NCBI GenBank assembly: GCA_017309275.1
Contig: JAFKLT010000030.1
Location: 1-64,000 of the forward strand
Direction: 5' to 3'
DNA from: Sphingomonadales bacterium
GTDB taxonomy: Bacteria; Pseudomonadota; Alphaproteobacteria; Sphingomonadales; Sphingomonadaceae
DNA length: 64,000 nucleotides
Below, piece after piece: positions 18,114 through 50,178 of the stretch (the first letter of the stretch is position 1; each line of letters opens with the position of its first letter). A model generated the notes under the pieces. That model did no database searches. It saw only the letters and a program-made list of their open reading frames with translations, and was not told where the DNA came from. The position numbers and the translations under genes were made by a program.

Positions 18114-19337
18114 TTACGACGCCAGCAGTTCCTTCAGCGGGGTGGCCGCGTCGGCAAGCTGTTCGGGGGTCGCGCGCAGGCCGGCGGTGACGATCATGCG
18201 GCCCTGGACATAATCCTTGGTCGCATTGACGCAGTCGATCGCGATGACCTTGCCCGCCTTCAGATAGACGATCGAGAAACTGCGGCTGGCGATGTCGCCG
18301 CGCAGCACCGCCTGATCGTGGCCGGTCGACAGGCCCGCGGTCTGAAGCTTCAGATCATATTGGTTCGACCAGAACCAGGGGATCGCATGATAGGGCGCCT
18401 CGTCGCCGACGATGCCCTTGGCGACGACATTCGCCTGGTCGTTCGCATTCTGCACCGATTCCAGCCGGATCGTCGCGCCTTCGGCAAAATCGTTCACATG
18501 CGCGGCGCAATCGCCGATCGCATAGACGTCGGGCAGGCTAGTCTTGCACAGCCGGTCGACGAGCACGCCGTTGCCGCCCTCGGCGCCCGCGTCGATCAGC
18601 GGCTGGGTCGCGGGGACGATGCCGATGCCGACGATCACCAGGTCGGCCGGAATGACCTGTCCGTCCGCCAGCCGGACGCCGGTGACGCGCGTGTCGCCCT
18701 CGATCGCGTCGACCACGACGCCGAGGCGCAGGTCGACGCCATGGTCGCGATGTTCCTTTTCATAGAAGCGCGACAGGTCGGCACCCGCGACGCGCGCCAG
18801 CACGCGGTCGAGCGCTTCGAGCAGCACGACCTTCTTGCCCGCCTTGGTCAGCACCGCCGCGGCTTCGAGCCCGATATAGCCGCCGCCGATCACGACGATC
18901 TGTCCCGCCGTCTCCGACGCCGCCTTCATCGCGTCGGCATCGGCGCGGGTGCGCACGCCCTGAACGCCGGGCAGGTCGCCGCCCGGGATCGGCAGCATGC
19001 GAGGGCTTCCGCCGGTCGCCCAGACGAGCTTGCCGTAACCGATCGTCTCGCCGCCGTCGGTGGTGACCGTGTGCGCCGCCGGATCGACCGACACGACACG
19101 CTTGCCGAGCAGCATCGTCACCTCGCGCTCGTCCCAATATTTGGCGGGACGCAGCTGGATGCGTTCGAATTCCTTTTCGCCCGCGAAATATTCCTTCGAC
19201 AGCGGCGGGCGTTCATAGGGAAGCTCGGGTTCGTCGCCGATGATCGCGATGCTGCCCTCGAACTTTTGCGTGCGCAGCATGACCGCAACCTGCGCGCCCC
19301 CATGCCCGGCTCCCACGATCACCACGTCGAATTGCAT
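18114..19337 (-). CDS. NAD(P)H-dependent ferredoxin reductase (rubredoxin/putidaredoxin reductase type)
   Basis: A 407-residue FAD enzyme from the ATG at 19337, preceded by GGAGGG; an in-frame start 21 bases further upstream is less likely. It has the FAD motif [14 protein letters not shown] at the N-terminus, [12 protein letters not shown], the NAD motif [17 protein letters not shown], and the second FAD contact [11 protein letters not shown]-terminal reductase domain with [12 protein letters not shown] is typical of putidaredoxin, rhodocoxin and Rieske-oxygenase reductases. It passes electrons from NAD(P)H to a [2Fe-2S] ferredoxin. The only such ferredoxin in the window is at 49858 and the clients (P450, Rieske oxygenases) lie at 33-56 kb, where no reductase is seen. 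It is therefore the best local candidate to serve them. Confidence 0.9.
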
Positions 19338-19413
19338 AATCCCTCCGCTACGGCACACTCGCTATTTGCCGGGGTCCCTGACATGCGCGGCAGGCGGAGA
19401 CAAGAAACATTGG

Positions 19414-33385: not shown

Positions 33386-34783
33386 ATGATGACCGATCAG
33401 GCGATGAATTTCCGCGACGACAGGCACCCGGCGGATTCATACGAAGACGTGCTCGCGCGCGAAACCCGGCCGGTGCCGGACTATATGCGCGAAGGCCGCC
33501 AACTGGGCGACGGCGCAATGACCGTCGCGACGGATCGCTATTGCAGCCCCGCCTTCCTGGAAAAGGAAATCCGGCACGTCTGGCTGAAGACCTGGCAGTT
33601 CGCCTGCCGCGAGGAAGACATACCGAAAGCCGGCGATTTCCATGTGTATGAGGTGGCGGGAAAGTCGCTGATCGTCGTGCGTCAGGACGATGGATCGATC
33701 AAGGCGCTGCACAATGTCTGCCTGCACCGCGGCCGCAAGCTGGTGACGGGCAAAGGCTGTCGCAGCGAGTTCAAATGCCCCTATCACGCCTTCACCTGGG
33801 CGCTCGACGGTGCGTACAAGAGCAATCCGATACCGTGGGACTTTCCGCATATCGAACCGGACGAGTTCCGCCTGCCCGAGGCACTCGTCGACACCTGGGG
33901 CGGCTTCGTCTTCATCAACTTCGATCGCGACGCAAAGCCCTTGCTCGACGTCATCGCCCCGCTAGCGACCGATTTCGAGCGGTTCGATTTCGCGAACCGC
34001 TATCGCGCGATCTGGGTCCAGAAGAAGTGCCGGTGCAATTGGAAGGCATTGTCGGAAGCCTTCGCGGAATCCTTTCACAGCATCACCACGCACCCGCAGA
34101 TCCTGCCGGGCATCGGCGATGCGAACAGCCAGTTCGATTGCCCGAACGACTATGTCTCTCGGCAATTCTCGGCGACAGGTGTCGCCAGCCCGTTCATCGC
34201 ACCGCTGAGCGAGCAGGAGATTTTCGACCATCTGACCGGCGCGCGGACGCGCATCGCGGTGGACGGCGGTGTCAAATTGCCCGAGGGCGCGACCGCGCGC
34301 GCGACACTTGCGGACCTCGCGCGCCAGACTTTGGCTGCCGAGACGGGCAAGGATTACAGCGACGCCACCGATGGCGAGATGATCGATTCCATTCTCTATG
34401 ACGTTTTCCCCAACATGTCGTTCTGGGCCGGTCATGTGTCGAACATCGTGTATCGCTGGCGCCCCAACGGCCTGTCGCCCAACGAGGCGATCATGGACAT
34501 CATGATCCTGAAGCCCGTTCCGGCAAACGGCGAGCGCCCCCGTCCGGCCCCGGTCTTCGAGATCGGCCTGGATGAATCGATGACGCTGGCAAACGACATT
34601 CTCGGTCCCGGGCTTGCGGCGGTTTTCGAACAGGACATGCTGAACCTGCCGCAGGTGCAGGCAGGGCTGGAGGCATCGGAGACGGGCCGCCTCTACCTCG
34701 GCCGCTATGCCGAGCAGAAGATCCGCTCGCTGCACCTGATGCTGGATCGCTATATCGCCGAAGGCGAAGCGGCGCAGAGCTGA
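33386..34783 (+). CDS. Rieske-type aromatic-ring-hydroxylating oxygenase, alpha subunit (complete)
   Basis: A 465-residue oxygenase subunit with both metal sites intact. The Rieske [2Fe-2S] ligands are Cys112 and His114 in NVCLHRGRKL and Cys131 and His134 in KCPYHAF. The catalytic iron ligands are His231 and His236 in ESFHSITTHPQ, with a later acidic ligand region VFEQDMLNLPQVQ. Overall it resembles phenylpropionate-dioxygenase-type and related terpenoid/steroid oxygenases. No beta subunit is encoded nearby. It needs a ferredoxin and reductase, available at 49858 and 18114. Two adjacent ATG codons occur; the second is better spaced from GGGAG. It stands as the first gene of the island, preceded by a box. 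Confidence 0.92.
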   Translation: MMTDQAMNFRDDRHPADSYEDVLARETRPVPDYMREGRQLGDGAMTVATDRYCSPAFLEKEIRHVWLKTWQFACREEDIPKAGDFHVYEVAGKSLIVVRQDDGSIKALHNVCLHRGRKLVTGKGCRSEFKCPYHAFTWALDGAYKSNPIPWDFPHIEPDEFRLPEALVDTWGGFVFINFDRDAKPLLDVIAPLATDFERFDFANRYRAIWVQKKCRCNWKALSEAFAESFHSITTHPQILPGIGDANSQFDCPNDYVSRQFSATGVASPFIAPLSEQEIFDHLTGARTRIAVDGGVKLPEGATARATLADLARQTLAAETGKDYSDATDGEMIDSILYDVFPNMSFWAGHVSNIVYRWRPNGLSPNEAIMDIMILKPVPANGERPRPAPVFEIGLDESMTLANDILGPGLAAVFEQDMLNLPQVQAGLEASETGRLYLGRYAEQKIRSLHLMLDRYIAEGEAAQS

Positions 34784-34864: not shown

Positions 34865-36175
34865 TCAGTTCGGCGCCAGTTCCTTTTCGCCGACGCGCGC
34901 CAGCAACTCGCCGATCGCGTCCTCGACGTTCGCCGACGAGAATTCGTTGAGCATGACCGTCAGAATATGCTGCTGCGCGCGGGCAAGGAAAACCCGCTGC
35001 AGGCGCGGGTCGAACCGGTCGTCGACCGTGTGATAATCGGGCAGGTGCGTTTCGACGATCGTCGGCGCATCGATCATCCAGTGGAAGGCATCGACGCTGA
35101 TCGCCAGCCGATACAGGAAGCGGAACTCGTCCAGGCTGATCGCCGGACCGCCGGCAGCGCGATACTGCTCGACGAACGCCGCCATCAGCTCTTCGCGCTT
35201 CTCGTCCATCAGGTCGAGCTCCGCGGCGCAGACCATTCCCCAGAATGCGCGGACGATATTCATCTGCCCCGCGCTGCCCCAGTCGAGGAACCCGACGCCC
35301 AGACGGTTTTCGGCATCGCGCCAGAACCAGGCATTGTCGATGTTGATGTTCCAGTGGCACAGCGCGATGAAATCAGACGCCGCGTTCAGATAGCCATAGA
35401 TCATGTCCTGGTGCTTCAGAACCAGGCTGGTCTCCCGCGCAAAGCGGTCGATAAATTCGGTGGTCGCGAAATTCTTGGGAAGCAGGTGCGGCGCCTTATT
35501 CGCATAGGTCCGCAGCTTCTCGATCCGCAGGTCGACATCGGCCTGGCTATAGGGAAATCGTTCGCCGCCGATTTGCCGGGGTCCGGGAAAGCGGAATTTT
35601 TCGCCGACCGTCGGCCCGAGCTTGCCCGCGCGATGCTCGCCCGCCAGCGCGGCATTGGCCCGGCTGACGACGAGATAGCGTTCGAACTGGTCGTCCAGCA
35701 GAAAGTCCTGGCACTTCTCGAGCGCCGGTTCGACCCGCCCCTCGCCATAGCCGATCCGCTCGGTGATCAGGATGCCGCACAGCGCGTCGCCATTGAAGTC
35801 GGCGAAGAAGGCGGTCGGGATCGGCACCGGCAACGGCGTGCGGATCGACAGCAGGTAAAAGCGGACCTCGGCCTGCATCGGCCAGGTGAAAAGCTCGCGC
35901 TGCGGATGGCCTTCGTCGAGGGGGAACTTCACGAACAACTGGCGCGCCAGACCCTCGCCCCGTTCATATTCGACATCGAGAAGCAGCTTGCGCCCCATTC
36001 CGCCGCCCACGAACTCGTCGGCGCGCGTGATCGCGGTTACACGGTCATCGGCCGGAAGCGTGCCGACCGCATGAAAGGCCCGCGTGAGAAAATCGGCGCC
36101 GACCTTGCGAAAGGATTCGATCGTCGTGGGAAATTCCGTGCCGGTTTCCTCGCCTATGACCATTTCAGGAAGCAC
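34865..36175 (-). CDS. Aminoglycoside-phosphotransferase-fold protein with altered Brenner motif
   Basis: A 436-residue protein of the APH/ecdysteroid-kinase-like fold, started at a GTG with GGAGA seven bases upstream. A likely ATP-site Lys83 lies in QLFVKFP. The Brenner motif HxDxxxxN aligns with His274-Trp-Asn276-(4)-Asn281, so the catalytic Asp is Asn here. The metal-binding Asp is kept as Asp298 in GFLDWG. In true kinases of the fold the Brenner Asp is the catalytic base, so this may be a weak kinase, a pseudokinase or use a different base. It lies at the end of the E1-hydratase-lipoyl operon. Similar phosphotransferases are common in steroid and terpenoid clusters; substrate is unknown. 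Confidence 0.7.
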   Translation of the reverse strand: MLPEMVIGEETGTEFPTTIESFRKVGADFLTRAFHAVGTLPADDRVTAITRADEFVGGGMGRKLLLDVEYERGEGLARQLFVKFPLDEGHPQRELFTWPMQAEVRFYLLSIRTPLPVPIPTAFFADFNGDALCGILITERIGYGEGRVEPALEKCQDFLLDDQFERYLVVSRANAALAGEHRAGKLGPTVGEKFRFPGPRQIGGERFPYSQADVDLRIEKLRTYANKAPHLLPKNFATTEFIDRFARETSLVLKHQDMIYGYLNAASDFIALCHWNINIDNAWFWRDAENRLGVGFLDWGSAGQMNIVRAFWGMVCAAELDLMDEKREELMAAFVEQYRAAGGPAISLDEFRFLYRLAISVDAFHWMIDAPTIVETHLPDYHTVDDRFDPRLQRVFLARAQQHILTVMLNEFSSANVEDAIGELLARVGEKELAPN

Positions 36176-36244: not shown

Positions 36245-36478
36245 TCAATGCTCGATCACGGCGACGACCGCACCGACCGGATAGGCTTCACCGACGACAC
36301 CGATACGCCGAACCTTTCCGGTGACGGGAGCCTCGACATCCTGCGCGGTCTTTTCGCTTTCGAGGGTATAGAGCAGCGCGCCCTCGGTCACGTCACCGCC
36401 ATCCTCGACATGCCATTCGACGATCGTGCCTTCGGACATTCCGGCGCCGAGGCCGGGAATGCAAATCTCGGTTGTCAT
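36245..36478 (-). CDS. Free-standing lipoyl (biotinyl/lipoyl-like) domain protein
   Basis: A 77-residue single lipoyl domain. I start at 36478 because GAGGGA lies seven bases upstream; an earlier in-frame ATG is weaker. The swinging-arm turn LESEKTAQDVEAP carries the lysine expected to be lipoylated, and GAGMSEGTIVEWHVEDGGDV and YPVGAVVAVIE complete the domain. In normal 2-oxoacid dehydrogenases this domain is the N-terminus of E2. Here it is separate. The E2 catalytic core is encoded at 43390 without a lipoyl domain and E1 at 37506-39487, so the three probably form one complex with a split E2. Confidence 0.85.
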   Translation of the reverse strand: MTTEICIPGLGAGMSEGTIVEWHVEDGGDVTEGALLYTLESEKTAQDVEAPVTGKVRRIGVVGEAYPVGAVVAVIEH

Positions 36479-36498
36479 GTTCGCTCCCTCAATTGATG

Positions 36499-37422
36499 TC
36501 ATGAAATGTCGGACGCCGCGGCCCCGGCCGGAGCCTCCACGCGGTCGGACGAAACCGCGGCCGGACGAAGGGCCGTGCAGCCGTTGCGGATGACCGCAAC
36601 ATCGCGCTCGACCGCCGTGGCCTTGAAATCGACGATGTCGCCGTCAACCCAAAGGTCGACGCGCAGGGTCTCGCCAGGAAAGAGCGGCGCGGTGAACCGC
36701 GCGCTGTGGCTGAAGATACGGTCGCTGTCATAGCCGACGACCTGTTGCAATATGGCGCGGCACGTCATGCCGAAGGTGCATAGTCCGTGCATGATCGGCT
36801 GCGGAAAACCGACCTGCGCAGCCGCGACGGGATCGGCGTGCAGCGGATTGCCATCGCCGTTCAGCCGATAAAGCAGCGCCTGATCGCGCCGCGTCGGCAT
36901 CAGTACGCTGATGTCGGGCGTGCGCGCCGGTTCGTCGGGCAATTGCGCCCGTTCGGCGCGCGGGCCGCCGAAGCCGCCATCGCCGCGCGCGAAGATCGTG
37001 TTGACCAGCGCGGCGACATCCGCCCCGTCGGCGTCGGTCCAGCGCGTCTCGGTCACGACGACGGCGCCGCGCCCCTCGCCCTTGTCCTCGACACTCAACG
37101 TGCGCGTGTCGGTGAACAATGTGTCGGCGGGCCGCAGCGGGCGATAGACGATGATCTCCTGCTCGCCGTGCACGACCTTCGGGAAATCGAAGCTGCTCTT
37201 TCGCAATCCCGCGCCGGGCAACAGCGGCGGCATGATGCTGCCGCCCAGCACCGTCACCGCGGTCGGGACGATCCGCAGCGCCTGTTCATAGACGAAGGGC
37301 AGCCCGCCCGCCTCCTCCCCCATGCCGATGCTGAGCGCGTACAGGATGGCGTCCTTCGTCGTATAGGAAAAGGATCGCCGCTCGCTCGCCTCGCTCAAAA
37401 TGTCGGGATAGTGGATCGGCAC
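36499..37422 (-). CDS. MaoC-like (R)-specific enoyl-CoA hydratase (hydratase 2 type)
   Basis: A 307-residue double-hotdog hydratase starting at GTG with a GAGGA site. The C-terminal hotdog carries LYRLNGDGNPLHADP and PIMHGLCTFG, the hydratase 2 signature with its catalytic Asp and His, as in the peroxisomal multifunctional enzyme 2. The N-terminal hotdog (VLGGSIMPPLLPGAGL) is the substrate-shaping half. It would hydrate a trans-2-enoyl-CoA to the (3R)-hydroxyacyl-CoA. It sits between E1-beta and the lipoyl gene, tying 2-oxoacid oxidation and side-chain beta-oxidation together. Confidence 0.9.
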   Translation of the reverse strand: MPIHYPDILSEASERRSFSYTTKDAILYALSIGMGEEAGGLPFVYEQALRIVPTAVTVLGGSIMPPLLPGAGLRKSSFDFPKVVHGEQEIIVYRPLRPADTLFTDTRTLSVEDKGEGRGAVVVTETRWTDADGADVAALVNTIFARGDGGFGGPRAERAQLPDEPARTPDISVLMPTRRDQALLYRLNGDGNPLHADPVAAAQVGFPQPIMHGLCTFGMTCRAILQQVVGYDSDRIFSHSARFTAPLFPGETLRVDLWVDGDIVDFKATAVERDVAVIRNGCTALRPAAVSSDRVEAPAGAAASDIS

Positions 37423-42315: not shown

Positions 42316-43200
42316 TCAGGTCTTTCGCGCAGCCCTGCTCGCGGGCGATCGACGCGTGGTCTTTGCGGGCTTTTCGGCTGCACCCTTCGAAGAATCGCCA
42401 CTCGATTTCTTGGCGGGCGGCGGCCCCTCGGCCGCAGGCTGCCCCTGCTGCTTGGCCTTGTGCGTTTGCAGAAAAGCCGCACGCAGTTCGCCCGGCTCGA
42501 CCTCCGCCATCTTGCGGAAGGTCATCCAGCTCGACCGGTTGTTTCGCAGATCGCTCAGCCATTGCTCGGCTTCGGCCTTGTGCTTGCCGCGCGTCGAGGC
42601 CGCCACGATCATCAGGAAACCTTCGCAAACGCGCTCGACCAGAAGCTGGTCCTCGATCTCGCCTATGCACCAGTCGGTCAGCGTGGCGTATGTGTTGGTC
42701 GTCAGATAGGCGGCGATATGTTCGGGAGTGACCTTGGCCTGGAGCCCCTTTTCCTCGTTGAGCATCTCGATGAACGGCTTGTACGCATTGGTCGACATCA
42801 GCCGCACCGCATTGCGCAATTCCCGGTCAGACTGCGCCGAATTATACACTGACATGATCGCGGTCGTGTAGGATCGAAGCTGGGTGTTGCGCGAGTGGAC
42901 CTTGATCATCCGTTCGATCTGTCCCTCGAGCGTCTTGCGAGGAAATTTATAATAGACGGAATTATTGAATTCCTGCGTGTATTGCGTGACCGCCAGCGTG
43001 ATCACATGATCCTTGCTGCCGAACGCATTATACAGCGTTTTCTGCGCGATGCCGGCGCGGGCGCATAGCTCGCGAACGCTCAGTTCCGCGACGCCCGACT
43101 GAGCGATCATCTTGCGGGCGACGCGCAGGATACGCTCGCGCCGTTCCATGATGCTGTCGCTCTTATATTTGGTCGGGCGTCCGGCGACGGATTCTTCCAT
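42316..43200 (-). CDS. TetR family transcriptional regulator, likely controller of the island
   Basis: A 294-residue TetR-type protein, long for the family. The N-terminal DNA-binding domain is clear: RERILRVARKMIAQSGVAELSVRELCARAGIAQKTLYNAFGSKD in order, with the recognition helix near TLYNAFGSK. The middle is a helical ligand and dimer domain. The last ~55 residues are a Lys/Pro/Ala-rich, probably disordered tail (PAKKSSGDSSKGAAEK and similar), which could add DNA affinity. It is divergent from the E2 core gene across a spacer with a strong box. It is the only regulator in the 33-62 kb island, so it is the natural candidate to bind the TATAGCGCGTTATA-like sites. Confidence 0.88.
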   Translation of the reverse strand: MEESVAGRPTKYKSDSIMERRERILRVARKMIAQSGVAELSVRELCARAGIAQKTLYNAFGSKDHVITLAVTQYTQEFNNSVYYKFPRKTLEGQIERMIKVHSRNTQLRSYTTAIMSVYNSAQSDRELRNAVRLMSTNAYKPFIEMLNEEKGLQAKVTPEHIAAYLTTNTYATLTDWCIGEIEDQLLVERVCEGFLMIVAASTRGKHKAEAEQWLSDLRNNRSSWMTFRKMAEVEPGELRAAFLQTHKAKQQGQPAAEGPPPAKKSSGDSSKGAAEKPAKTTRRSPASRAARKT

Positions 43201-43350
43201 TTTCTCTCTCCTGCCGGGACCTATCCGCGGACTTTCCGCGTCCCCTGTCGATGGCCCCGTCGCACCGATGGTTCACACATCTGCCACGGTTCCACGCTTC
43301 GTTTCAATAATGTTTCGCGCAGGCTCGCCTTGCCAGTCTCGACAAGATTA

Positions 43351-43364
43351 TATAGCGCATTGCA
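43351..43364. promoter_or_regulatory. TATAGCGCGTTATA-like box between tetR-type gene and E2 core gene
   Basis: TATAGCGCATTGCA matches 11 of 14 consensus positions. It lies 26 bases before the E2 start, overlapping the expected -10 region, where a bound repressor would block transcription. The 186-base spacer is shared with the divergent TetR gene. Confidence 0.45.
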
Positions 43365-43389
43365 TTATTTAGAATCGATGGAGAGAATG

Positions 43390-44160
43390 ATGCTGGACCA
43401 TATGCTTTGGAGCCAATCGATCACGCCCGACCCTGCTCTGGTCGAGGAGTGCGCGAAACAAGGCATTCCGGAGGATAGCTATGTGGTCCAACCGCTCGAC
43501 GTGATCCGGCGAACGATGGCACGGCGGATGTCCGAATCCTTCAGCGAAGTTCCGCATTTTTCCTTGAAGTCGAGGATCGAGGTCGACCGCCTGCAGCAGG
43601 CGCGCGCCGCGATCAACGTCGGACGCGCCGACGACCGCGTCTCGTTCAACGACCTGATCATCAAGGCGGTCGCGATCGCCATCGCGCGCTATCCAGCGAT
43701 CAATGCCAGCTATCATCCCCGCGGCATATTGCTGCACGCCCACGCCGACGTCGCGGTGGCGGTCGCGATCGAGGGCGGGCTGATCACCCCGATCATCCGG
43801 GAAGCGGAGGGCAAGTCGGTCGGCCAGATTTCCTCGGAAATGAAGGACATGGCCGCGAGAGCGCGGCGCAAACGCCTGTTGCCCGAGGAATATTCGGGCG
43901 GCACGATCACCATCTCCAACCTCGGAATGTTCGGGGTGACCGAGTTTACCTCCATCATCAATCCGCCGCAGGCCTGCATCCTGTCGGTCGGCGCGGCTTT
44001 CGAGGAATATCGCGTGGTGGACGGCGCGCCCTATGTTGCGACGGTCATCGCGCCCACGCTGACGTGCGACCACCGCGTCGTCGACGGCGCCACCGGGGCG
44101 CGATGGCTGCAGCATCTGCGCGACGTGATCGAGGCGCCCGAAGAATGGGCGACCGCATAG
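43390..44160 (+). CDS. 2-oxoacid dehydrogenase E2 catalytic core without lipoyl domain
   Basis: A 256-residue acyltransferase core. Landmarks are MARRMSESFSEVPHFSLKSR (start of the E2 catalytic domain), VSFNDLIIKAVAIAIARYP, SGGTITISNLGMFGVTEFTSIINPP, and the catalytic CDHRVVDGATGARWL with His and Asp. No lipoyl domain is present and no convincing peripheral-subunit-binding domain: only about 38 residues precede the core. A normal E2 is 370-450 residues. The missing lipoyl domain is encoded separately at 36245. Several starts are possible; I chose the ATG four bases after GGAGAG. It would transfer the acyl group from lipoyl to CoA. Confidence 0.88.
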   Translation: MLDHMLWSQSITPDPALVEECAKQGIPEDSYVVQPLDVIRRTMARRMSESFSEVPHFSLKSRIEVDRLQQARAAINVGRADDRVSFNDLIIKAVAIAIARYPAINASYHPRGILLHAHADVAVAVAIEGGLITPIIREAEGKSVGQISSEMKDMAARARRKRLLPEEYSGGTITISNLGMFGVTEFTSIINPPQACILSVGAAFEEYRVVDGAPYVATVIAPTLTCDHRVVDGATGARWLQHLRDVIEAPEEWATA

Positions 44161-44173
44161 GCGATCCAGCCGG

Positions 44174-44938
44174 TCAGGCGCGCGCCTCGAGGTAGCGGAG
44201 CAGCGCGTCGCGCATCAGGGCGTAGGGGTCGACCAGCACCTCTTCCGGTCGGCCGACGAATTCGTCGCGCAGATATTGCGAATGCAGGTCGGGGAAGACC
44301 GCCGTATCGCCCGCCGCCCAGCCATCGAGGATGTTCGCCGCAATCTCCTGCGGCGACGTCTTCGCGAAGTCCGAACTGCGCATCATGTCCGTATCCATCA
44401 GCCCGGGATAGGCGAGCGAGACCGCCACGTTCGGCAGCGCGCCGCGCACCGCGTGGCCCAGCATGACACCCGCAGCCTTGCTCGCGCTGTAAAGCTCCGC
44501 CCCATGCGCGGGGACGAGCGCGGCGAGCGACAGTATGGAAATGAAGCCGCCGCCGCGGGCGTCGAGGCTCGGCCCAAACGCGTGAACCAGCCGAAGCGGG
44601 CCGAAGAAATTGGTCTCCATCGTCGCGCGCGCGCCCTCCATCGTCGTTTCGAGCAACGGCACCATATAGGTCACGCCGGCATTGCTCACGACGATGTCGA
44701 TATCCGCGAGGGCTGCAGCGGCGGCCACATGCGCGTCGTTCGTCACATCAAGCGATAGGGGAATCGCGCGCCCGCCAAAGGCGTCGAGCGCGGACCCGAA
44801 ACCGGCCACATCGCGCGCGCCGCAATAGATCTTCGCCGCCCCCCTGGCGAAGGCCGCCTCCACCAACGCCGCGCCAAGGCCGCGATTGGCCCCCGTGACC
44901 AGCAGCGTCTTGCCCTCGAAAGTCCGATCGTCACCCAT
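44174..44938 (-). CDS. SDR family oxidoreductase
   Basis: A 254-residue SDR from the ATG at 44938; the frame continues 37 codons upstream but without family sequence. It has LVTGANRGLGAALVEAAFARGA, SNAG in IVVSNAGVTY, Ser in ISILSLAAL and YSASKAAG. After strand 2 it reads KIYCGARD (basic, so NADP is likely). It is a clear paralogue of the SDR at 53901, which shares KIYAGVRN and the same organisation. Its start overlaps the end of the CaiB-like fragment gene, so both belong to the operon that begins with the Rieske-only gene. Confidence 0.87.
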   Translation of the reverse strand: MGDDRTFEGKTLLVTGANRGLGAALVEAAFARGAAKIYCGARDVAGFGSALDAFGGRAIPLSLDVTNDAHVAAAAALADIDIVVSNAGVTYMVPLLETTMEGARATMETNFFGPLRLVHAFGPSLDARGGGFISILSLAALVPAHGAELYSASKAAGVMLGHAVRGALPNVAVSLAYPGLMDTDMMRSSDFAKTSPQEIAANILDGWAAGDTAVFPDLHSQYLRDEFVGRPEEVLVDPYALMRDALLRYLEARA

Positions 44939-45605
44939 TGAACACCCCATTGCCTGTGGCGGAAAAATGCCGGTCATCGAAAGAAGCGAGAGCGGCCCAT
45001 GCCAATCGCTCGGCAAGCGCCCTCCCCTCCGCGCCCCGCTCTCGATCATGCCATCCCGGCACGGCGGTGGCGGGCACCTGATAGGTCAGGCAGGTCCCGA
45101 CGGCGTCGTCGACCTTGTGCGTGTCGAGGACCGTCGTCGCGAGACGATTGATGTCCGCGTCGCGCCATGCCTGTTCGGGTGGAACATCGCGGTATGCCGA
45201 GCGATTGAGGAAGGTCGAACAGAAGTTGCGCCACGCGTCACGCGTCGCGGTATGGACGAGCAACCAGCCGTCGTTTGCCCGCCAAAGCGACAAGGGCGGG
45301 CCGATGGGGAACTGATCTTCGTCGGTGTCCGGCGTCTCGGGCACGGTAGCGGACAGGCCGCCGCCGGCCGTTCCGGAAGCGAGGGCAAGCAGCGCGGCGG
45401 CAGCCTCGGTCGGCGCGGCGTCGCCCGGCATGTCCACACACCAGTCGAACACCTGTCCGTCCAGCCGAACGGCTTCGGCCGGCACCGGCCCGGCCGCTGC
45501 ATCGGGCCAGAATTTCATCATGGCTCGCAGGCGCACATGGCGTGGCACGATGATTGCCAAGGCCGCCGCCTTGCCTAGGCGTTCGCGGACAATGCGCGCG
45601 ACCAT
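44931..45605 (-). CDS. Half-length protein with weak resemblance to family III CoA-transferases
   Basis: About 224 residues; the start is uncertain. The ATG at 45605 overlaps the Rieske-only gene by 31 bases, and GTG or ATG codons about 20-28 codons later are alternatives. I recognise no domain with confidence. The segment PPLSLWRANDGWLLVHTATRDAW, followed by DAVGTCLTYQVPATAVPGW, resembles the C-terminal half of CaiB/BaiF proteins, where a DGW pattern and an AAGVPA pattern occur at similar spacing. The catalytic-Asp half is missing. Coupling to genes on both sides and intact codon use argue for a real gene rather than a leftover. Function unknown. Confidence 0.45.
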   Translation of the reverse strand: MVARIVRERLGKAAALAIIVPRHVRLRAMMKFWPDAAAGPVPAEAVRLDGQVFDWCVDMPGDAAPTEAAAALLALASGTAGGGLSATVPETPDTDEDQFPIGPPLSLWRANDGWLLVHTATRDAWRNFCSTFLNRSAYRDVPPEQAWRDADINRLATTVLDTHKVDDAVGTCLTYQVPATAVPGWHDRERGAEGRALAERLAWAALASFDDRHFSATGNGVFNG

Positions 45606-46438
45606 TCCGTCGTAAAATCGCCCACCGGCGGCATTCCCGAGGTGGCCGAATCGCGCCGCAATCCGGACACCGCATCTTGCAGCCTCCGCTCGAGATCTTC
45701 GGGCGACGGCGCATGCGCATCCTCCGCCACACAGACGACCAGCTCGACCTCGGTCGTCGCCTCGTCGCGGGGCCAGGCCGCCATCATGCTGAGTTCGCCG
45801 TCCTGCTCCGTGAAGCAGATGTTCGGGAAATATTGCTCGCGCCCCTCCGACCGCGACGACAGATGCGCCACGACGCGCTTCCAATTGGCATCGACGATCA
45901 GCGTCTGACGTCCGGCGATCCTGTAATGCGATCGACCCTCGATCCAGGGATGCAAGGCGCCGAGAGCCGCGGCGAGTTCGGGCGCCTTGCCGCTCTGGTC
46001 GATCCACAACCAGCCCCCCAGTTCGGCCAGCCGGAGCGGCACGAGCGAGTGGGCGCAGCGGTCGATATTGCCAAAATCCCGCTCGTCCGGGATCGCCATC
46101 AGCTTGCCGAACGTGTCGTAGGTCCAGCTATGATATTGGCAGCGAAAGGCGCGGGCACGGCCGGTCGGCGTTCGCACCACCGGCGCGCCGCGGTGGCGGC
46201 AGCTGTTGTAATAACCCCTTATTTGTCCATCGACCGAGCGAACCATCACCGTCGGGATGCGCGTGCGTTCCCAGGTGAAATAGCCGCCGATGTCGGCCAG
46301 TTCCTCCGCGCGGCCGACGGGCATCCAGAATCGGGCGAAAATTTGTGCCAGCTCGCGCTCGTAGAGGTCGGCTCCGCTCTCCGATCCTTCGAAAAATGCT
46401 GAATTCTCCAACGGTTCGACAGGCAGCGTCAACGACAA
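45575..46438 (-). CDS. Rieske-domain protein lacking the catalytic-iron region
   Basis: A 287-residue protein starting at TTG with GGGAG seven bases upstream. The Rieske domain is intact: Cys80 and His82 in NSCRHRGAPV, Cys100 and His103 in FRCQYHSWTYD. The C-terminal part begins as in an oxygenase alpha subunit (DANWKRVV, residues 184-190). Where the Glu/Asp-x-Tyr-His-x4-His motif should follow, it reads AHLSSRSEGREQYFPN and passes directly into the late strands (ELSMMAAWPRDE). About 90-100 residues carrying the mononuclear iron ligands are absent. It can carry electrons but cannot hydroxylate alone. The divergent neighbour has the opposite defect. Confidence 0.85.
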   Translation of the reverse strand: MSLTLPVEPLENSAFFEGSESGADLYERELAQIFARFWMPVGRAEELADIGGYFTWERTRIPTVMVRSVDGQIRGYYNSCRHRGAPVVRTPTGRARAFRCQYHSWTYDTFGKLMAIPDERDFGNIDRCAHSLVPLRLAELGGWLWIDQSGKAPELAAALGALHPWIEGRSHYRIAGRQTLIVDANWKRVVAHLSSRSEGREQYFPNICFTEQDGELSMMAAWPRDEATTEVELVVCVAEDAHAPSPEDLERRLQDAVSGLRRDSATSGMPPVGDFTTEWSRALSANA

Positions 46439-46579
46439 TTATCATCTCCCGAATGATAGCGGCGGCTTTTGTTTTCGCTGTAGCCGTATCGCATTACCGG
46501 AGTAAACTCTAGCACGCATTCCCCTTTTGGTATAGTGACGGGAAGAAACCGAAAAAAGACAAGGCGAGGATGAGGCGCG

Positions 46580-47932
46580 ATGGACCAGGCAATCATGGAC
46601 CGGATCAAGGGCAAGATTCTGGCCGAGTTCGACCGTGAGGGACTGCCCGACGGCTTCCCCGAACTGCCCGCGATTCCGGCGGGCCGCTATACCGAACAGC
46701 CGTTCTTCGACCTCGAGCAGGAGCATATGTGGGCGCGGACCTGGCTCTACGCAGGCCGCGCCGAGCAGTTGCCGCGCCCGGGAAGCTATCAGATCTGGGA
46801 CTATAGCGGCCCATCGATCCTGCTGGTCCGCGACGAGCAGATGCGCCTGCGCGCCTTCCTCAACGAAAGCCCGAACAATGCGCCGCTGGTTCCGCTGACC
46901 GACCAGGGCGCGCATCAGCACGAAATGCCCTTCGACGCCCCGGGGCGCATGTTCATGCAGGTCGAATTCCCCGAACTCGACCTTCCTGGCGGCGTGCTGC
47001 AATGCCAGCGCAAGGGCTGGACCTATGACCTCGACGGCCGACTGGTCGCGGTACCGAGCGGCCAGACGATCGAAAGCGTGCCGCACGCGCATCGGCACCT
47101 GACCGAGTATCGCTGCGACGTCTGGGAAGGCTTCGTGTTCGTCAACCGCGATCCGGGCGCCATTCCCCTCCTCGAATGGCTGGGGCCGGTCGCATCGCAA
47201 ATGGCGCAATATGAGTGCGCAAAGCTGCGGATGTTCTCGCGCGCCACGGTCCTCCTGCGCACCAACTGGAAGGTGGCGACCGAAGCGTTCCAGGAAGTCT
47301 ATCACTTCAAGCACATCCACCATCATGAAGGGGTGGTGTCGCTCGACCAGCGCGGCGTGACGCACGCCATGTTCCCGCACGGCCATTCGCGCATGGTAAC
47401 GCCCTTTGCCAAGCGGCAGCAGGTCGCGATGGGCATGGCCGGCCCGACCGACTGGGAAGCGGCGGCGGACAGCGCGCGCGAATCGCTCATCGGGACCGGC
47501 ACGCCGCTGATCTCGACGGTGGAATCGATCGTGAACGGCGCGGTCCTGACCTATAGCCTGTTCCCGAACCTGACCACGCCGACCTCGGCTCGCGGCCTGC
47601 CCATCCTCGCCGCCTGGCCGGTCGATCCGGCGCACACATTCTTCGAATGGACGTCGTTCGTCCCCGATTGGGGCGAGGATACGCCCGCGATCGAACAGAT
47701 GCGCGAGGCCACGCTTCGGACGCCGATGACGATCATGGAAGAGGATGTGCGGAACATGGAGCCCATGTTCATGTCGCTCTCTTCGCCCGGACTGCCGGGA
47801 CTGCGCATCGGCTATAACGAGCGCAGGCTCTACAATTCGGCCGAAGTCCTGGACCAGATCATCGGTATCGAGCGCATCCCGGAACGGCTGCGCGTTCGCC
47901 AGTTGCTCAGCGGCTTCGTGGAGCAGGACTGA
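46580..47932 (+). CDS. Rieske oxygenase-like catalytic subunit with a lost [2Fe-2S] site
   Basis: A 450-residue alpha-subunit-like protein. The catalytic domain looks intact: NWKVATEAFQEVYHFKHIHHHEG gives His242 and His247 with the usual x4 spacing, and a late acidic region MTIMEEDVRNME. The Rieske domain is recognisable (GWTYDLDGRLV, WEGFVFVNRD) but its ligands are gone: the Cys-x-His pair reads Ser97-x-Asn99 in NESPNNAPLV, and Cys-x2-His reads Cys142-x2-Lys145. About 25 extra residues separate the two. It therefore cannot hold a Rieske cluster and must receive electrons from another protein, most simply its divergent neighbour. It is coupled (TGATG) to the MDR gene. Confidence 0.85.
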   Translation: MDQAIMDRIKGKILAEFDREGLPDGFPELPAIPAGRYTEQPFFDLEQEHMWARTWLYAGRAEQLPRPGSYQIWDYSGPSILLVRDEQMRLRAFLNESPNNAPLVPLTDQGAHQHEMPFDAPGRMFMQVEFPELDLPGGVLQCQRKGWTYDLDGRLVAVPSGQTIESVPHAHRHLTEYRCDVWEGFVFVNRDPGAIPLLEWLGPVASQMAQYECAKLRMFSRATVLLRTNWKVATEAFQEVYHFKHIHHHEGVVSLDQRGVTHAMFPHGHSRMVTPFAKRQQVAMGMAGPTDWEAAADSARESLIGTGTPLISTVESIVNGAVLTYSLFPNLTTPTSARGLPILAAWPVDPAHTFFEWTSFVPDWGEDTPAIEQMREATLRTPMTIMEEDVRNMEPMFMSLSSPGLPGLRIGYNERRLYNSAEVLDQIIGIERIPERLRVRQLLSGFVEQD

Positions 47933-49857: not shown

Positions 49858-50178
49858 ATGGCAAGAATCACCTATATCGAACCCGACGGCACCGAACGCG
49901 TCGTTGACGTGAGAACCGGACTTTCGCTGATGGAAGGGGCGGTGAACAACGGGGTCAACGGCATCGAGGCCGATTGCGGCGGCGTCTGCGCCTGCGCCAC
50001 CTGCCACATCTATGTCGCCGCCGACTGGTTCGAGGCAGCAGGGCCGCGCACCGACATCGAGGAAGCCATGCTCGATCTGGCGAACGAGGTTCGCGAAACC
50101 AGCCGCCTGTCGTGCCAGGTCAAGGTCACCGACGCGATGGACGGGCTGATCCTGTCGATACCGGAAGACCAGCGCTAA
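49858..50178 (+). CDS. [2Fe-2S] ferredoxin, adrenodoxin/putidaredoxin type
   Basis: A 106-residue ferredoxin. The cluster ligands are Cys40, Cys46 and Cys49 in DCGGVCACATCH (Cys-x5-Cys-x2-Cys, with an extra Cys44) and Cys86 in SRLSCQVKV, the order expected for the adrenodoxin group that serves bacterial class I P450s and some Rieske oxygenases. Length is typical (about 105). It is the only ferredoxin in the window. Likely partners are the reductase at 18114 upstream in the electron path, and the P450 at 54970 or the Rieske proteins downstream. Confidence 0.95.
   Translation: MARITYIEPDGTERVVDVRTGLSLMEGAVNNGVNGIEADCGGVCACATCHIYVAADWFEAAGPRTDIEEAMLDLANEVRETSRLSCQVKVTDAMDGLILSIPEDQR

Follow-up and report, generated by a model that had tools for sequence, protein, structure and literature searches.

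Rieske oxygenase alpha subunits normally carry both of their metal sites, the Rieske cluster and the catalytic iron, in one chain, so that electron transfer between neighboring subunits, although central to these enzymes, can seldom be taken apart. In CntA, the distance from Rieske cluster to iron is 12.2 Å between subunits compared with 44 Å within a chain, and the bridging glutamate E205 is essential for inter-subunit electron transfer (PMC7948474). The oxygenases described in a 2025 review, of the alpha3, alpha3beta3, alpha3alpha'3 and alpha3alpha3 types, are presented there as C3 assemblies (PMC12445004). The chlorophyllide a oxygenase of Micromonas pusilla (MpCAO) consists of two polypeptide chains, suggested to form a heterodimer, which are active in vitro with reduced nicotinamide adenine dinucleotide phosphate (NADPH) and VanB, although less so than the single-chain homologue, and the authors of that work consider a trimer of dimers or a comparable arrangement likely (PMC9615114). 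The 7-methylxanthine N7-demethylase NdmC has no Rieske cluster and is served by NdmD together with NdmE (PMC4408171). In this report we focus on a pair of divergent genes, A (P0002) and B (P0001), in a stretch of 64,000 nucleotides from a Sphingomonadales bacterium (assembly GCA_017309275.1, contig JAFKLT010000030.1, positions 1 to 64,000), hereafter the window. We propose, with a probability of roughly 57%, that their products are two alpha-type subunits, each indispensable, of a single hetero-oligomeric Rieske oxygenase, which arose from a duplicated GbcA/CntA-like gene by reciprocal loss.

Both open reading frames are found where an earlier note on this DNA had placed them. B (45575..46438, minus strand) encodes a Rieske-only relative of the oxygenase alpha subunit, a protein of 287 residues with a TTG start and GGGAG upstream, and A (46580..47932, plus strand) encodes a Rieske-less alpha subunit of 450 residues bearing the iron site; the two genes point away from each other, 141 bp apart. 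Pfam scores mirror this division of labor. B scores above the cut-off for Rieske (54.8 bits) and below it for a remnant of Ring_hydroxyl_A (21.5 bits versus a cut-off of 24.9), its domain content being limited to Rieske and part of Ring_hydroxyl_A with no reductase domain, while A scores above the cut-off for Ring_hydroxyl_A (69.4 bits) and below it for Rieske (18.6 bits versus 20.3). The top NCBIfam model for both is GbcA (62 bits for A, 95 bits for B), far under its cut-off of 670. All six NCBIfam matches of B are oxygenase models, and at 287 residues B is neither the small protein nor the match to ferredoxin models that would mark a Rieske ferredoxin. Among PDB chains, the top match of A is CntA, and that of B is biphenyl dioxygenase (89 bits).

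We tabulated the distribution of metal ligands from an alignment of 57 proteins: three orthologues each of A and B, 35 single-chain relatives of A (the A-family) and 16 other Rieske oxygenases, the last two groups being sorted by their score to A. The four Rieske positions read C/H/C/H in 3/3 B, 35/35 family relatives and 16/16 other oxygenases, and S/N/C/K in 3/3 A. In B, the ligands are Cys80, His82, Cys100 and His103 (CRH...CQYH; 46130..46201, minus strand), in a region mostly invariant among the three orthologues; in A, the equivalent pseudo-Rieske region (46868..47014, plus strand) has Ser97, Asn99, Cys142 and Lys145, and between the former ligand pairs lies a 25-residue insertion (residues 113-137; 46916..46990, plus strand), of which residues 115-128 are invariant in all three orthologues. 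The picture is reversed at the 2-His-1-carboxylate iron site and its bridging acid. Glu239, His242 and His247 (EVYHFKHIH; 47294..47320, plus strand) and the third iron ligand Asp389 (47744..47746, plus strand) are complete in 3/3 A and 35/35 family relatives, and the same four columns are gaps in 3/3 B. The 16 other oxygenases all have Asp or Glu as the bridging acid, with the second His missing in one row and a gap in the Asp column in one. Set against a single-chain alpha subunit, all three A orthologues lack the CxH...CxxH Rieske ligands and have the iron site, and all three B orthologues have the former and lack the latter. Because the same losses are seen in 3/3 orthologues of each gene against intact sites in 35/35 relatives, they are not due to chance.

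Compared with the single-chain relative from Novosphingobium PP1Y, B has four gaps in the catalytic domain that total 100 residues: two of them (49 and 13 residues) near the first and second iron ligands, one of 14 at the site of the third (Asp), and one of 24 at the C terminus. A further 23 residues are missing at the N terminus. What is left of its C-terminal part (residues 186-287; 45578..45883, minus strand) has no iron ligands and is under relaxed constraint. These results uphold what the earlier note had read from the letters, namely that B keeps all four Rieske ligands but is short of some 90-100 residues with the catalytic-iron motif, and that A keeps the His242/His247 motif with Ser, Asn and Lys at three of the Rieske positions; the missing residues of B are spread over several stretches rather than forming one block. 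Going beyond that note, A also retains Cys142 at the fourth Rieske position, the bridging Glu239 and Asp389, and carries the insertion. That B and A carry complementary sites, B an intact Rieske site and A an intact catalytic iron site, is thus confirmed at the level of sequence.

Selection acts on the two proteins in the same complementary way. We estimated the ratio of nonsynonymous to synonymous substitution rates (dN/dS) by the Nei-Gojobori method, comparing the window with genome G420 unless stated otherwise. For A, dN/dS is 0.098 over the whole protein, 0.010 in the motif region (225-275) and 0.14 in the Rieske-like region; for B, it is 0.039 in the Rieske region (38-150), 0.49 over residues 185-287 and 0.56 in the C terminus (200-287). 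Values against Sphingopyxis sp. Root154 agree (0.089 for the B Rieske region and 0.030 for the A motif), the C terminus of B being saturated at synonymous sites in this comparison. The Rieske part of B and the iron motif of A are under strong purifying selection, and the leftover C terminus of B is relaxed, which means that each protein is tightly held at the site missing from the other.

The pair is rare in the genomes that we searched. Among 80 genomes of the genus, orthologues of A are found in the window genome, G420 (91% identity) and G421 (79%), and orthologues of B in the same three (73% in G420, and 50% or 56% in G421/Root154 depending on the alignment). The matching region of G421 is that of Root154, which was the sole locus returned by a close-relative scan of a named genome collection. 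These three genomes, one per species, have the same pair with the same losses in the same divergent order, and a fourth match to A, at 29% identity in G411, has its Rieske motif intact and is a canonical enzyme. With strict thresholds, only the window's own copies were found in 397 sampled genomes of the taxonomic family, a sample outside which G420 and G421 lie. A profile search with A in 396 genomes of the order and 385 of the class gave 16 further places, all with the Rieske motif and the EVYH/ETYH motif intact. A profile search with B in 166 genomes of the order gave 44 places, among which the window's is the sole short one, the other 43 being open frames of 387-605 residues; pattern matching finds both motifs in all 19 of the places that were fetched, of which 10 belong to the A-family (198-244 bits to A). 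This distribution speaks against chance and against sequence error. No relatives were found in scans of viral contigs, none of seven matching plasmid records held most of the pair's DNA, and phage records gave seven weak matches to A, of which the five listed are at 21-25% identity.

The divergent promoter region is also conserved, containing a 25-bp block (46504..46528) that is identical in the three species within otherwise diverged DNA and may serve both genes as an operator or promoter element. Each of the three genomes contains its 19-bp core once without mismatch. No second good copy that would make the block the mark of a regulon was found in the three genomes: there was one match with three mismatches in Root154, and a backwards control gave one match in the window genome. 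A TetR gene lies at 42316-43200.

Several comparisons make a common origin for the two genes likely. The closest full-length relatives of A that we saw, in Novosphingobium PP1Y, Niveispirillum, Paracoccus, Acaryochloris and others, are ~33-39% identical to it, and trees built on the shared N-terminal region place A with this single-chain family. Among the compared proteins, the five that score best to B (110-132 bits) all belong to the A-family, followed by a non-family protein of N. resinovorum (109) and then by a mixture of family and non-family proteins at 94-106 bits. In the B profile search, the nine best of the 43 places other than its own are all A-family, and the tenth is not. This favors the duplication of a single-chain gene followed by reciprocal loss, an origin that is likely, although not proven, on these comparisons. 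In two reduced trees, but not in the widest tree, A, B and the family form one side of a starred branch. We saw no second A-family gene in the window genome, where the next single match to A scores 42 bits and the best whole protein compared 78 bits. The three trees that we tested leave out eight long-branched or other oxygenase rows present in the first tree (the genome's own C63, C57a, C57b and C33, the window's oxygenase at 33386 and its G420 copy, another gene from Niveispirillum, and the L036 gene of N. resinovorum); the widest tree also omits a duplicate Niveispirillum row and an additional L061 open reading frame under 70 bits, and truncated or duplicate open reading frames were not used.

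How might two such proteins work together? In the enzyme that we propose, a ferredoxin would reduce the Rieske cluster of B, which would dock on A with its His103 facing the bridging Glu239 of A, and the electron would pass from B across the shared junction to the iron that His242, His247 and Asp389 of A bind, at which the substrate would be oxygenated. Glu239 is the counterpart of E205 in CntA, and with this residue retained in A and the Rieske ligands in B, the simplest electron route runs through a B-to-A junction. The dead Rieske-like domain of A would be kept as a structural piece, presumably filling the slot at A-A junctions, as sequence and known structures suggest; there, Lys145, which takes the position of the ligand His normally facing the bridging acid of the neighbor, may form a salt bridge with the neighboring Glu239. 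The two proteins may assemble as A2B, as AB2 or in larger numbers. If three of them close head to tail into a ring, no more than one junction can be B-to-A, for A2B and AB2 alike. The idea put forward in the earlier note, that a hetero-oligomer of the two proteins could rebuild a full enzyme, gains from the complementary sites, the conservation in three species, the purifying selection, the bridging Glu and the divergent promoter block, but loses from this one-junction stoichiometry problem.

A number of observations weigh against our proposal. On the structural side, the conserved Rieske-like domain of A could keep B out of the canonical junction, and the relaxed C terminus of B could mean that an alpha-type interface is no longer needed. 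AlphaFold monomer models, built on three alignment sequences for A and two for B, have predicted local distance difference test (pLDDT) scores of 32.7 and 42.6, respectively, and are too poor for use; a Foldseek comparison of the poor B model with CntA and other Rieske oxygenases, in which the template modeling score (TM-score) reached 0.28 among the 50 matches listed, was not used as evidence. The genes are divergent rather than co-directional. In the trees, sisterhood of A and B received approximately unbiased test values (p-AU) of 0.512, 0.524 and 0.763, none of them significant; grouping B with other oxygenases is not rejected (p-AU 0.411) and is the free tree of the second reduced set (54/84); and the free search of the widest tree gathers A and the 35 relatives on a starred branch (95/91) from which B is absent, although forcing A and B together in that tree raises the log-likelihood by 6.66, so that the highest-likelihood tree found has them together. 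Finally, a canonical Rieske oxygenase in the window (33386-34783, plus strand) is present in exactly the same 3/80 genus genomes as the pair. The conserved co-occurrence to which the earlier note had looked as a check is therefore real for A and B but weak, since an oxygenase of the same cluster shares it and the pattern is a property of the cluster rather than of the pair; on this ground we no longer take strict co-occurrence to prove an A-B partnership.

The same canonical oxygenase bears on what else the two proteins might be doing. B might be a free-standing Rieske electron carrier, an oxygenase-derived ferredoxin that serves A and perhaps also the canonical oxygenase without being a stable subunit of either, much as the Rieske domain of NdmD feeds NdmC (PMC4408171). 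Its catalytic remnant evolves fast (dN/dS 0.56), as if the Rieske part alone mattered, and the shared distribution of the canonical oxygenase would fit; however, the length of B and its matches to oxygenase rather than Rieske ferredoxin models argue otherwise, an oxygenase with its own Rieske cluster has no need of B, and in two of the three genomes the cluster already encodes a separate [2Fe-2S] ferredoxin, so we regard this role as rather unlikely. The canonical oxygenase could instead be the donor, for example in mixed trimers with A, leaving B as a separate or dying gene. It has both Pfam domains, an intact Rieske motif and the same occurrence, but it shares no more than 29% identity with A and lies ~12 kb away (~30 kb in Root154, on the same contig), and the strong conservation of the Rieske part of B is not that of a dying gene, all of which makes such an arrangement improbable.

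It is equally improbable that A has left oxygenase chemistry altogether to become an isomerase, a lyase or a substrate-binding protein that needs no Rieske electrons, with B an unrelated redox protein. The replacement of three of the four Rieske ligands and the new 25-residue insertion are what such a change might look like, but Glu239 is invariant and the motif of A has a dN/dS of 0.010, and we know of no use for a bridging Glu other than Rieske electron entry. Decay or sequence error, at which the neighboring CoA-transferase might seem to hint as it too is a fragment, is very improbable: open reading frames of the same form occur in three genomes, at 50-91% identity, which rules out a sequence error or frameshift, and dN/dS at the retained sites is well below 1, on which ground a pseudogene is rejected.

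Among the genes around the pair, a [2Fe-2S] ferredoxin (49858..50178, plus strand), 90% identical in G420 and without a match in the 39 kb of Root154 searched, is a candidate electron donor to B; together with a ferredoxin-reductase-like protein (18114-19358), it could supply electrons. Directly downstream of B is the C-terminal half of a coenzyme A (CoA)-transferase III (44931..45521, minus strand; start at MMKFW chosen by us), a fragment that covers positions 194-311 of the 366 of PF02515 on 45047-45578 (minus strand). This shortened gene is conserved beside the pair (62% in G420 and 47% in Root154). The wider cluster encodes an acyl-CoA ligase, short-chain dehydrogenases/reductases, MaoC, E1 and E2 components, a lipoyl protein, the ferredoxin, a TonB receptor and a cytochrome P450, as well as an Old Yellow Enzyme-type flavoprotein, a thiolase with an oligonucleotide/oligosaccharide-binding (OB)-fold partner, acyl-CoA dehydrogenases and a full CoA-transferase III, and looks like a CoA-type catabolic island. 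Its E2 is split, with an acyltransferase domain without lipoyl domain (43330-44160, plus strand) and a stand-alone lipoyl protein of 85 residues (36245-36502, minus strand) beside the E1 subunits. A protein of 436 residues (34865-36175, minus strand), 89% identical in G420 and 74% in Root154, has no Pfam, NCBIfam or PDB sequence match. On a Niveispirillum plasmid (L028 2973-7221), a single-chain relative of A has as neighbors a complete CoA-transferase and another Rieske oxygenase gene, which is divergent; this order recalls that of the window.

Taking our proposal one step further, we tentatively suggest, giving it somewhat less than even odds, that this is a bacterial oxygenase in which duplication and reciprocal decay of one self-sufficient alpha subunit have produced an obligate pair of one-site subunits, asymmetric (non-C3) with one working junction per ring, and convergent with the Micromonas enzyme. 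If true, such a natural pair would allow each site to be measured, tuned or removed separately, would reveal whether a ring can do with a single working junction, and would illustrate cleanly how duplication is followed by complementary loss inside the catalytic chain of an enzyme.

Compared with known systems, the single-chain GbcA/CntA-type oxygenases share with A the bridging Glu and the iron ligands but differ in having both sites in one chain and in forming an alpha3 homotrimer; their PP1Y, Niveispirillum, Paracoccus and Acaryochloris members, which are closest to A and among the best scores to B, keep both sites in those examined. As for MpCAO, work by Kunugi et al. in 2013 reportedly placed the Rieske cluster in one chain and the iron site in the other. 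Passages from four further sources (PMC13297055, PMC13363849, PMC6006212 and PMC8003979) hold no statement of which site sits in which Micromonas chain. The likeness is that one Rieske oxygenase activity is, or here would be, distributed over two chains, which in the present pair are one Rieske-only and one iron-only chain, as they reportedly are in MpCAO; the difference is that MpCAO is algal and acts on chlorophyll, whereas the present pair is bacterial, lies in a CoA-type catabolic cluster and belongs to a GbcA/CntA-like family. With NdmC/NdmD, the pair shares a catalytic subunit without a Rieske cluster and a cluster on another protein. However, the Rieske domain of NdmD is fused to a reductase, unlike B, and the glutathione S-transferase (GST)-like NdmE takes part; no GST family was found among the 37 window proteins scanned. 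Literature searches returned, among the matches listed, no description of a comparable pair in bacteria. The earlier view that a divergent one-site pair is new was too strong, since MpCAO was already a two-chain enzyme with activity in vitro (PMC9615114). Two bacterial alpha subunits that each carry the one site missing from the other nevertheless look new in this form, the two-chain and separated-Rieske plans having their precedents in MpCAO and NdmC/NdmD, respectively.

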